A model generated the notes under the pieces. That model saw nothing but the letters and a program-made list of their open reading frames with translations, had not been told where the DNA came from and made no database searches. From NCBI GenBank assembly GCA_003278425.1, contig QCFE01000008.1, positions 1-64,000 of the forward strand: 64,000 nucleotides of DNA, written 5' to 3'. Of this stretch, positions 26,899 to 59,893 are shown in pieces; within the stretch, counting starts at the first letter, position 1; every line of letters starts with the position of its first letter. The translations under genes and the position numbers were made by a program. This DNA comes from Prochlorococcus sp. AG-363-B11 (GTDB lineage Bacteria > Cyanobacteriota > Cyanobacteriia > PCC-6307 > Cyanobiaceae).

Positions 26899-28167
26899 TT
26901 ATTTGCTATTTAGAAACTGCAAAATCATTTTCGCCAAAGCTTCACTCCCTCCAGAAGAACCCATCCGCTTTTTTCCTATCACTGATAAGCGCTCCCTTAG
27001 CCTGGAATCTTGAAGTAATAGCTGGACTCTTTTAGCCATTTGAGCAGAGCTCTTACAAGGAATTACACTGCCACCTAATAATCGACTTTGTCTGATTGCA
27101 AACCCATGTTTAAATTGCGGTCCCTTACCAGGCAAGGAGACACAAGGGACTCCAAGCCCAACTAATTGTTCTGTAGCCGTTCCAGCATTGGCAATGCCAA
27201 TCTCAGCAAATCTTGACCACTCCTCAAATTTTCCAGCACCAATAACAAGTTTCAAACCATTCTTCTCAAAAACACTATTTACATCTAGTTGAGTTAGCGA
27301 CGATTGGACTTTTCTATAACCTTTTTCGTTTAAAGAATCCTCAACTAAACCTATAGAAGGTTCAGCACCAATCGCTACAAATACCATTAAAGAAGCCTTA
27401 TTTTCAATTTGTTGAACAGCATTAAGCAATCGTTTGAAATTAATAATAGCCTCAGGCATGCGACTCCCACAAAGCAAAATCACACGTCTAAAATTCTTCA
27501 AATAGATAGGCAAGTCTACTGGAAGAAATCCATCCATCATTGGGTTCCCTGGAGCTATAACCCTTACATTTTTTTTTCTTAAACCTCTGGCCGTTAATTG
27601 ATCTCTTACTGCAACTATCTTGCATCGAAATGCCTTCATCAAGTTCCATTCCCAAGGCTCCCATTCACTACCTTTCAGTGAATGGTAATAATCACTAAGT
27701 GAGTAGCGTCTTGAAGTTTTCCATGTGTAATCACTTTTTGGGGTACCTACAAATGCATAGTTCCCTCCACTACTCCACGCAATAAAAAGCGGTAGCAAGT
27801 CACCTACAGCAACAATAAAACTTCCATCTTTGGCTGCACGTCTCACACATAACCAATTTTTCCAATTTACCCACAAAATGCCTGCAAACAAATCTTGAAT
27901 CAAACCGCTTAAACTTTGATTACTAAAGCCACCACTAGGTAATCGAAGTGCACTTCCTGATTTAACCAACCATAGGTCCTGAATAGCATCAAAAAAAACC
28001 TTTCCCTCTCCTACTAAAGAAATAACTTGCAACTTTAATTCAGGATTCAAACGATGCAAAGCTTCCAATATTCTTAAAGCAATGAGGTCTTCACCATGAC
28101 CATTCGAAAGCACTAAAACATTTTTATTCTTTGGACTGATACGATCCAAAGGGGGGAGATTTTTCAC
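26899..28167 (-). CDS. LpxB-related glycosyltransferase
   Basis: 422-aa protein related to lipid-A-disaccharide synthase but in the separate cyanobacterial group. The N-terminal LVLSNGHGEDLIALRILEAL marks a GT-B fold start; later EEWSRFAEIGIANAGTATEQLVGLGVPCVSLPGKGPQFKHGFA forms the nucleotide-sugar binding part. The open frame continues upstream to 28320, but that part crosses tRNA-Cys on the opposite strand and encodes the well-known false peptide AAPRFELG. The first credible start is GTG at 28167, which lies only 6 nt from the tRNA gene. Its product is unknown. Confidence 0.8.
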   Translation of the reverse strand: MKNLPPLDRISPKNKNVLVLSNGHGEDLIALRILEALHRLNPELKLQVISLVGEGKVFFDAIQDLWLVKSGSALRLPSGGFSNQSLSGLIQDLFAGILWVNWKNWLCVRRAAKDGSFIVAVGDLLPLFIAWSSGGNYAFVGTPKSDYTWKTSRRYSLSDYYHSLKGSEWEPWEWNLMKAFRCKIVAVRDQLTARGLRKKNVRVIAPGNPMMDGFLPVDLPIYLKNFRRVILLCGSRMPEAIINFKRLLNAVQQIENKASLMVFVAIGAEPSIGLVEDSLNEKGYRKVQSSLTQLDVNSVFEKNGLKLVIGAGKFEEWSRFAEIGIANAGTATEQLVGLGVPCVSLPGKGPQFKHGFAIRQSRLLGGSVIPCKSSAQMAKRVQLLLQDSRLRERLSVIGKKRMGSSGGSEALAKMILQFLNSK

Positions 28168-28173
28168 TCTCTG

Positions 28174-28244
28174 GGCGGCATGGCCAAGCGGTAAGGCAGA
28201 GGATTGCAAATCCTTTATCCCCAGTTCGAATCTGGGTGCCGCCT
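28174..28244 (+). tRNA. tRNA-Cys (anticodon GCA)
   Basis: Acceptor strands GGCGGCA (28174-28180) and TGCCGCC (28237-28243) pair fully, followed by discriminator T, as expected for tRNA-Cys. The anticodon stem GAGGA/TCCTT holds loop TTGCAAA, giving GCA. It is divergent from the glycosyltransferase gene with almost no space, so each promoter must lie inside the other gene or the RNA must be read through. Confidence 0.97.
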
Positions 28245-28927
28245 TTATACCAAATCTCATGGTATTTCTATAGATCCTCTCCAGTAATTTTCTTGTTCTA
28301 TATAGGAAGACAAATCTCAAGAGTATTTCATAGCAAGAAAAGTAATCGCAAGGGATTTCAGATCAATCTTAGTTGAAATACCAAATAAATTTCGAATTAT
28401 TCTGAATCCCATTATCACCTAAAAGTTTCAATTGTTCAAAAATAAGCAACTAAGGATGTAGAGCAATGATGGATGCACATACTCAGAACCTTGCTAAGCA
28501 ACACTTTTGTCCTAATAAGAAGACAAAAAAAGAGCGCCCTCAACGAGCAGCGCCCTATTGGACAAGTCTGTGAGGAGTGTCCACTATGAATATATACCAA
28601 AAAAAGGATATTTAAAAATTTCTAAAAACTATGCAGTTCCCAAAATACCTATATAAACGTAGAAGAAGCTATTGCTTGGTGAGCAAGAAAATCAGTTTAA
28701 TATAGAAAAGTTTCTAATCAATGAAAGAAGCTTAAATAGCCTTTGCTTTAAATTGAGATAATGGCAATCAATTTATGAGAGATAATTCAACAAAATTAAT
28801 AGTTTATCAAGTTTCAAACAAATCCTCCCCTACCCCTCAAGATCCACTAACACTTCTGAATTGTTAAGATGTTTACCATTGTATAAAAGAGCCTTATATA
28901 GTCTTTAAAAAGAAATTAATCAATTTC
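28245..28927. other. Gap with small-RNA candidate
   Basis: About 680 bp between tRNA-Cys and a small membrane-protein gene. It contains the small-RNA candidate at 28525-28582 (minus strand) and, opposite it, a weak 35-codon frame at 28466-28573. I see nothing definite in 28245-28460 or 28600-28925, which are AT-rich. Confidence 0.6.
28525..28582 (-). ncRNA. Candidate small RNA with Yfr1-like motif
   Basis: On the minus strand the sequence ACTCCTCACA lies at 28578-28569, matching the core ACUCCUCACA(C) of the cyanobacterial small RNA Yfr1 except for the last base (G here). It sits within a GGACA/TGTCC stem (28582-28578 with 28564-28560). Then comes an 8-bp stem (28556-28549 with 28538-28531; loop of 10) followed by seven T (28531-28525), an intrinsic terminator. 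A TATATT -10 element is at 28594-28589. The resulting transcript of about 58 nt is the length reported for Yfr1. Identity with Yfr1 is inference; Yfr1 usually lies elsewhere (near trxA/guaB). Confidence 0.42.
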
Positions 28928-29059
28928 ATGGCGCCAAAAGTACAACCTCAAGATCTAACCTACTCTCTATTTGGAGTAGTTCAAATTTCTGCCGTTATCA
29001 TAGCCTCGCTTGGTGCCCTCATTGGCTTTGAAAAGGTCTTTTTCCCATTTTCAGGTTAA
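28928..29059 (+). CDS. Small single-helix membrane protein (43 aa)
   Basis: An ATG frame encodes a 43-residue protein starting MAPKVQPQDLTYSLFG and ending KVFFPFSG. A hydrophobic helix covers about residues 14-35 (GVVQISAVIIASLGALIGF). The size and topology resemble the small subunits of photosystem or NDH-1 complexes, but I recognise none of them. It has ordinary codon use and a free-standing promoter region. Probably a real gene missed by length cut-offs. Confidence 0.65.
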   Translation: MAPKVQPQDLTYSLFGVVQISAVIIASLGALIGFEKVFFPFSG

Positions 29060-29120
29060 TTTTTAGATTGTTTATTTCTTTCAATTCATAATTTAGATCT
29101 ATAATTAAATAATATTGTTA

Positions 29121-50215: not shown

Positions 50216-50622
50216 TGAAAGCAGGAGAGGTGATCGCAATCGAGATTTGTTGGATTTCCACAATAAAGCCTCGATTGAGGAAAGTCCGGGCTCCCAAATG
50301 GTCGAACTTGCTGGGTAACTCCCAGTGCGGGTGACCGTGAGGATAGTGCCACAGAAACACACCGCCGATGACTTTTATGAGCAATGCTCATAACAAGAAC
50401 AGGCAAGGGTGCAAAGGTGCGGTAAGAGCGCACCAGCAGTATCGAGAGGTACTGGCTTGGTAAACCCCGGTTGGGTGCAAGGCAAAGGTTTTAGGATGAC
50501 CATCTTGCCTATCTCCTATATAAAGGCCGCTAGAGGCTGTTGGCAACAACAGTCCCAGACAGATGATTGCCCACTATCTAAGATTAGATAGTGAACAGAA
50601 CCCGGCTTATGCCCTGCTTTCA
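50216..50622 (+). ncRNA. rnpB: RNase P RNA
   Basis: The catalytic RNA that trims tRNA 5' ends. Conserved regions are visible in order: GGAAAGTCCGGGCTCC (CR I) after the P1/P2 helices, CCACAGAAACA, AAGGGTGCAAAGGTGCGGTA followed by AGAGCGCACCAGCAG, AGACAGATGATTGCC, and ACAGAACCCGGCTTAT (CR V). The ends are set by the P1 helix: TGAAAGCAGG (50216-50225) pairs with CCTGCTTTCA (50613-50622). About 407 nt, normal for cyanobacteria. No T-run follows, suggesting processing. Confidence 0.95.
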
Positions 50623-50669
50623 CTTAATTTCATTATTAATAACCAAATAAATGTACCTAATAATAAAAA

Positions 50670-59720: not shown

Positions 59721-59749
59721 TTACAACCATGCCGTGATCACTCTCTTTC

Positions 59750-59834
59750 ACTTTCCTTCGCCGGGTTTAACCGTATCAGGTTCAGAGGGTGTGATCTCAG
59801 CCAAAAGCAACAGCTTATATATGGCACCCCTAGT
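59750..59834 (-). promoter_or_regulatory. TPP riboswitch (THI element) of thiC
   Basis: On the minus strand the conserved regions appear in order: ACTAGGGGTGCC (59834-59823), GGCTGAGATCACACCCTCTG, then AACCTGATACGGTTAA, then CCCGGCGAAGGAAAGT. These match the CTGAGA, ACCTGAT and GCGNAGGGA consensus elements. The flanks ATCACT and AGTGAT extend the P1 helix. The region between it and the thiC start (about 60 nt) would be the expression platform; no clear T-run is visible there, so translational control is more likely than termination. Confidence 0.92.
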
Positions 59835-59893
59835 GATTTATTCAAACTAGCGATTTTTCAAGCAATAGTTCCTTTTCTGTAAAATAAAAATTG

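Follow-up and report, generated by a model that had tools for sequence, protein, structure and literature searches.

Does the spacer behind the tRNA-Cys gene of this Prochlorococcus genome encode a small RNA and, if so, is it a displaced Yfr1 or a member of another family with the same motif? The window, by which we mean the whole stretch of 64,000 nucleotides analysed, covers positions 1-64000 of contig C8 of genome G000 (1.49 Mb in 47 contigs, estimated to be 82% complete). A sequence-only reading had proposed here a small-RNA gene of about 58 nt with a promoter-like box and a terminator, and had taken it for a diverged or relocated Yfr1. Such a gene is indeed probable, because the unit is conserved and shows compensatory changes; what we find is very probably a well-supported sRNA gene of Yfr10 type, though its score lies below the Rfam threshold.

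Anatomy of the spacer

The features of the locus are collected in Table 1. On the minus strand ACTCCTCACA stands at 28578-28569 with G as the eleventh base, one base short of the 11-mer, just as had been described. The short stem proposed around this core can form (GGACA at 28582-28578 with TGTCC at 28564-28560), and the 8-bp hairpin (28556-28531) with its tail of seven T (28531-28525) was also correctly placed. The upstream TATATT is present, but the position that aligns with the box of the relatives is TATATA (28596-28591). Among 12 syntenic sequences this -10-like box has the consensus TTGGTATAnAGT and reads TTGGTATATATT in the window, TTGCTATA in four relatives and TTAGGATA in G008; their alignment contains no conserved -35 element. 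A promoter scan picks TATATT with a match of 9/12 (6 such sites found, 2.8 in shuffles), and a terminator scan recovers the upper part of stem 2 (1 found, 0.3 in shuffles). Judging from the sequence, the transcript would start near GGACA.

Table 1. Features at and around the candidate sRNA gene (positions in the window)
Feature	Position	Strand	Basis
Very probable Yfr10-type sRNA gene, ~58 nt	28525..28582	-	Model R1 and conservation in relatives
Yfr1/Yfr10 motif ACUCCUCACA in loop	28569..28578	-	Direct reading; invariant in 26 A1 copies, which had been selected on ACTCCTCAC
Stem 1, GGACA (28582-28578) with UGUCC (28564-28560), 13-nt loop	28560..28582	-	RNAalifold consensus
Stem 2, G+C hairpin, intrinsic terminator	28531..28556	-	Fold; 8 bp and 3 bp above a one-base bulge
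Seven-T terminator tail	28525..28531	-	Direct reading
-10-like hexamer TATATA, 8 nt before GGACA	28591..28596	-	Alignment of 12 syntenic sequences
tRNA-Cys(gca), syntenic neighbour on the opposite strand	28173..28245	+	ARAGORN
43-aa ORF, far side of spacer, flank outside the sRNA	28928..29059	+	ORF list

The Rfam scan at gathering thresholds reported nothing at the place of the sRNA, and the 43-aa ORF beyond the spacer has no Pfam match. Elsewhere in the window, a TPP riboswitch (59736-59841, minus strand) and a class A RNase P RNA (50218-50624, plus strand) exceed their Rfam cut-offs. Other readings of the spacer were rejected. A protein-coding one finds only short overlapping ORFs, including a 54-aa minus-strand ORF without a Pfam match, and most matches in relatives end near the T run. 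For a phage or viral origin, the spacer has no match in phage records and the sRNA pattern none in viral contigs. A Yfr2-like RNA on the plus strand was discarded as well: RF01701 (Yfr2/Cyano-1) has no hit in the window, nor any up to E 10 at 28000-29100, and the T run lies on the minus strand.

The minimum free energy of 28522-28582 is -19.8 kcal/mol (z -1.91), and 11 of 200 shuffles are as good; therefore, folding alone is no proof of an sRNA. The 10-mer motif, found 8 times in the genome compared to 3 for a reversed control, and 5 times in the window with one mismatch allowed compared to 3.3 expected, is weak evidence by itself. The candidate is raised above chance because promoter, sRNA and terminator are conserved together in relatives, with compensatory changes.

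Conservation in relatives and further copies

Used as a query, the spacer finds matches in 13 of the 14 genomes of the genus, its own included. In 11 of 13 same-genus relatives the contig with the tRNA-Cys match also bears the sRNA block, 0.08 to 5.1 kb away and with unchanged relative orientation. The two exceptions are G007, whose contig stops 384 bases past the tRNA-Cys match, and G013, which has no match. The conserved part in the 12 syntenic sequences consists of the TTGGTATAnAGT-like box (variants occur), the sRNA and the terminator.

Genus-wide, 27 copies were found with a pattern that required ACTCCTCAC and a downstream GGGCGC, the copies on contigs C15 and C35 of G000 being counted apart. 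Alignment A1 (26 sequences) contains all of these except the identical C35 copy, leaves aside the weaker R1 hits of the genus and was assembled without any structure model; model R1 was built from A1 only. At 28525-28582 (minus strand) R1 scores 86 bits (E 1.2e-20), a high value that is expected because the window copy is among the 26 sequences building the model; the next score in the window is 9.1 bits. At least four T follow in all 26 copies, though the extraction script demanded that. A second alignment, A3, has 49 rows, 17 of the 26 from A1 and 32 from other genera, the latter found with R1. It covers only part of the R1 hits of the family scan: duplicates (e.g. L136, the same sRNA as L135), L141 (missed by the picking script), L167 and L168 (by hand) and R1 hits in L169 and L170 (unmatched by the script) are left out, and L152 was put in by hand.

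In the RNAalifold consensus a 5-bp stem closes a 13-nt loop that contains the motif, and the terminator stem comes next. Compensatory changes, expected of aligned orthologous tRNA-Cys spacers if the gene were real, are present: both sides change in 3 of 16 pairs within the genus (A1 alone) and in 8 of 15 once other genera are added (A3). In A1 these changes involve 7 cells, the pair and cell counts being reached by 17/500 and 0/500 shuffles, respectively, and the covariation score is attained by none of 500. The covariation score of A3 is 0.240. Shuffles give 0.114, with 0/500 attaining the A3 value, and slid controls do not exceed 0.096. The cells of A3 pair in 98.6% of cases (shuffles 91.6%, slid controls no more than 63.4%), a percentage that leans on selection because R1 rewards pairing and the script demanded TGTC, TCTC or GTCG on the 3' side together with a GG..T-run pattern; both-side changes in stem 2 were not among these requirements. 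The measure of further pair types in A3 is attained by 88/500 shuffles. The outer pair of stem 1 is C-G in 27 and G-C in 22 of the 49 rows, its fourth pair is C-G in 46, G-C in 2 and unpaired in 1, and in stem 2 both sides change in 6 of the ten pairs counted.

All 50 stretches matching the sRNA pattern in genome contigs are assigned to Prochlorococcus. At E up to 0.01, R1 has matches in 74 of 300 genomes. Scores of at least 73 occur, among the matches listed, in g1 (13/14), in three g16 and in three g39 genomes; in other genera R1 reaches 23-70 bits, with up to five hits per genome. Linkage to tRNA-Cys extends to all six g16 and g39 genomes tested (0.15 to 7.9 kb) and to 2 of 8 genomes tested from other genera, namely the Yfr1-bearing G016 and G064. 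Over the three genera that yielded no Yfr1, the Yfr10-type gene was found in 19 of 20 genomes examined.

The 27 pattern-found copies comprise 12 linked to tRNA-Cys and 15 others. Twelve of these 15 have a Yfr2 core at +175 to +179, i.e. they lie upstream of Yfr2, and a palindrome-like TGNCAYATGTGNSA site is present at +76 to +79 in 13; of the three lacking a Yfr2 core, one (G007) sits at a contig end. For the window copy and its tRNA-Cys orthologues, a Yfr2 core within 350 nt downstream was found in 0 of 12. Five of six Yfr2-like RNAs examined are Cyano-1 above the Rfam cut-off, and the one on contig C6 of G000 scores 36.9 of 41 bits. Because an inverted-repeat search seeded with 9 bases failed to recover the palindrome in three cassettes, the evidence for it is a loose pattern match. 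Yfr2 promoters carry the CGRE1 motif, bound by a GntR regulator (PMC6778093), and our guess is that the palindrome of the cassettes is CGRE1. The sRNA-palindrome-Yfr2 cassettes of L121 (G000:C15:7000-9900) and L122 (G000:C35) are 100% identical over 300 bp and have no match beyond, which may reflect a recent duplication, gene conversion or an assembly artefact.

Further motif carriers were seen. In a second motif-hairpin class (L100 from 1162 on G000:C6, L099 from 2472 on G000:C13, L117 and L120), a long stem (AUCAGAGCC..GGUUCUGAU in L100) carries ACTCCTCACA in its loop, and the next hairpin lacks a T run. By reading, L100 (36.9 bits with RF01701), L117, L118 and L120 have a Yfr2-like antisense sequence about 160 nt off; L118 is predicted to fold without the long stem. 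Another motif sRNA (UUAGGRCACUCCUCAC..UUAGUCCUAA hairpin), at L083:1151-1223, in L084 near 1216 and in L098 near the start (minus strand), reaches 30.5-35.4 bits against Rfam Yfr10; L083 and L084 have it downstream of a Yfr2-like RNA, giving the order Yfr10-like, Yfr2, Yfr10-like. Finally, L091 (G012:C12:27800-29300, minus strand) contains a decayed-looking copy with ACTCGTCACAC, to which R1 assigns 41.2 bits at G012:C12:28517-28572.

Relationship to Yfr10 and Yfr1

Yfr10 presents its motif in a loop on a stem, and in high-light strains it sits upstream of Yfr2 (PMC6778093). A further mark of Yfr10 is that it is expressed as a separate sRNA responding to light or darkness. The corresponding Rfam model (RF02362) scores 22.5 bits at the place (E 1.3), aligning the motif and both stems, and genome-wide the place of the sRNA tops the list. 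This hit is not significant by itself, because its genome-wide E-value is 0.42, a second place is nearly equal (21.8 bits) and hits occur in unrelated control genomes (10/14 at E up to 10, 3/14 at E up to 1). The gathering score of 43 bits is reached neither in the window nor in any of the 14 genomes of the genus; we have therefore lowered the membership to 'Yfr10-type'. As a control, 9 of 10 genomes searched pass, namely all nine of g17, and one of g56 fails. We infer that g17 is the high-light clade, partly from these very Yfr10 scores. RF02362 is taken as a narrow model that misses the low-light branch at its cut-off, since Yfr10 homologues are called poorly conserved outside the motif (PMC6778093).

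In the opposite direction, R1 detects the Yfr10 gene with 20.8-26.7 bits in eight of nine g17 loci and with 9.4 in the ninth. In the family scan 6 of 8 g17 hits of R1 coincide with Rfam Yfr10 hits above the cut-off; R1 hits in G195 and G221 (g17) and in G068 (g56) miss the Yfr10 genes. A convergent invention, that is, a separate sRNA family having only the motif in common with Yfr10, would fit the Rfam score far under the cut-off and the same poor conservation of homologues (PMC6778093), but it has to contend with the architecture shared with Yfr10, with paralogues most of which lie 5' of Yfr2 as Yfr10 does, and with the reciprocal, albeit weak, hits between R1 and Rfam Yfr10; we regard it as unlikely. 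Scores of R1 near 25 bits can be noise and are weak alone, given that a hit of 25.4 bits in L229 has no motif.

Genome G001, which we take to be SS120, has 15 CTCCTCACA sites, and the two-hairpin anatomy occurs only at 1596048-1596056, in the orthologue of the window gene. This orthologue is one of two ACTCCTCACAC sites there; the window copy reads ACUCCUCACAG. Two such sites were counted in SS120 and its two 11-mers judged to be without comparable structural context (PMC2190773); Yfr10 was later detected in SS120 and suggested to let a Yfr1-less strain survive (PMC6778093). Being the sole two-hairpin site and one of the two ACTCCTCACAC sites, the orthologue in G001 is probably the RNA detected, and the window gene is probably an orthologue of the SS120 Yfr10. 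A second structured site in G001 makes this identity less than certain: in L114 (G001:C1:1401590-1402040, minus strand) an 8-bp hairpin with eight T behind it has CTCCTCACA, the motif without its leading A, as its loop, possibly a minimal motif carrier or a 3' end. Two R1 copies are present in G082, presumably MIT9313. An RNA of MIT9313 that carries the Yfr1 motif has been named Yfr104 (PMC6778093), and either R1 copy might be this RNA.

In Yfr1, the motif is unpaired between two stems, and two strains without Yfr1, SS120 and MIT9211, have been reported (PMC2190773). The candidate departs from this architecture (an unpaired stretch of 16-20 nt with ACUCCUCACAC between two stem-loops) in having the motif inside stem-loop 1, with G as its eleventh base. 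A Yfr1 covariance-model search found nothing at the place (E up to 10) or anywhere in the genome (E up to 0.001), and R1, applied to Yfr1 in 11 loci, gave 12.1 bits (L239), 9.2 bits (L236) and no listed hit in the other nine. RF01116 at E up to 0.01 is positive in 249 of 300 family genomes, and in 0 of the 14 of the genus; G028, G077 and G104 (g16) and G051, G089 and G114 (g39) are likewise absent from the positives. An unmistakable Yfr1 elsewhere in G000 was sought, and none was found in this genome estimated to be 82% complete. At the usual location of Yfr1, genes resembling guaB, trxA and hisH follow one another in G000, G001, G002, G003, G051 and G089 (the latter presumably MIT9211), with a spacer lacking the motif (L233 in G000); therefore, the missing Yfr1 in these six genomes is not due to incompleteness. 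The guaB search rested on matches below the cut-off of the family, and the names trxA and hisH are presumptive. In the control genomes G016, G064 and G082, Yfr1 is found at the guaB-trxA spacer. That Yfr1 is missing from this lineage agrees with the sequence-only reading.

In G016 and G064 a copy of the sRNA lies 3' of tRNA-Cys in addition to Yfr1 at guaB-trxA. This coexistence suggests that the Yfr10-type sRNA is hardly a moved Yfr1 and, because the tRNA-Cys place is occupied in two Yfr1-bearing genomes, that the tRNA-Cys-linked gene was probably already present, together with Yfr1, when the latter was lost. The claim that the candidate is a diverged Yfr1 which left guaB/trxA for the tRNA-Cys spacer could draw on the shared core motif, the similar size and the absence of Yfr1 from its usual place, but it is largely refuted by the coexistence and further weakened by the motif lying in a loop, the silent Yfr1 model and the near-failure of R1 to recognise Yfr1; we hold it to be very improbable. 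Least credible of all is that the spacer merely terminates some longer transcript or forms its 3' end, the motif upstream being due to chance: no element is stronger than the terminator hairpin, the 10-mer by itself is no rarity and promoter-like boxes are common in such AT-rich DNA, but the whole unit of upstream box, stem 1 and loop is conserved, stem 1 shows compensatory changes, and the unit recurs elsewhere behind different upstream sequences.

Pairing with Yfr2 and possible role

We strongly favour a stand-alone gene for a 58-nt trans-acting Yfr10-type small RNA, acting in the following way. Transcription would probably run from its own -10-type promoter to its own terminator, as the arrangement of the sequence suggests, and the loop of the first hairpin would present ACUCCUCACA, which is anti-Shine-Dalgarno-like. 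In MED4, Yfr1 and Yfr10 bind ppa mRNA and UCCU mutants do not, and Yfr2 blocks this binding (PMC6778093). By analogy, the loop would most likely pair with GUGAGGAG-like sites of mRNAs, changing their translation or stability, and most likely also with Yfr2-family RNAs (Cyano-1) at their 5' end, whose role would be that of a sponge. The action on ribosome-binding sequences envisaged in the sequence-only reading is, by the same analogy, probable.

The window loop is perfectly complementary over 12 nt to the Yfr2-like RNA on C6 and over 9 nt to that on C15/C35, and none of 500 shuffled loops equals its binding to either RNA. Across 20 loop-Yfr2 combinations (15 distinct) complementarity spans 9 to 12 nt, and binding of equal strength is seen in no more than 2 of 500 shuffled loops. 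Only this loop-level test discriminates: full-length sRNA-Yfr2 duplex energies are not clearly above those with shuffled Yfr2, and changing UCCU to UGGU gives no consistent weakening of full-length Yfr2 duplexes. Two inner pairs may form in the window loop, bases 7 and 8 having unpaired probabilities of 0.38 and 0.43.

In this lineage, in which Yfr1 was not found, the sRNA and its paralogues bear the Yfr1 motif and would probably take over part of the work of Yfr1. The data point to a probable stand-in gene for Yfr1, found in both Yfr1-less strains if G001 and G089 are SS120 and MIT9211 as we assume. A wider scenario, which we offer tentatively and rate at somewhat under an even chance, is that a multi-copy Yfr10-type family replaced Yfr1 in low-light Prochlorococcus. 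The solitary gene at tRNA-Cys would then supply a steady pool, the sRNA-Yfr2 cassettes would multiply as units, and the loss of Yfr1 in the SS120/MIT9211 clade would have been tolerable because the gene pre-existed. Within this replacement scenario, each cassette would consist of a regulator followed by its own sponge, with the palindromic site between them. The low-light branch with its several Yfr2-linked copies offers concrete loci for testing such an sRNA stand-in.

RNAs of the Yfr10 kind are known from ocean cyanobacteria, and the interest of the present one lies in its evolutionary setting: the tRNA-Cys-linked gene, the loss of Yfr1 and the Yfr2 cassettes. A tRNA-Cys-linked or multi-copy low-light form is not described in the available portions of PMC6778093 (supplements aside), PMC2518516, PMC7368042, PMC5069720 and PMC2190773. 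With Yfr1 (RF01116; PMC2190773) the candidate shares the core motif and the size range of 54-69 nt, whereas in Yfr1 the motif stands between two stems and the gene at guaB-trxA. Yfr10 (RF02362; MED4; PMC2518516, PMC6778093) differs from it in length (78 nt in MED4, compared to 58), in stem length (8 bp, compared to 5) and in terminator sequence, and the window copy stands alone at tRNA-Cys. Nevertheless, in both the first stem carries ACUCCUCACA in its loop and a second hairpin has a U tail, most paralogues of the candidate lie upstream of Yfr2 as Yfr10 does, and the R1 and Rfam Yfr10 models find each other's genes, if weakly.
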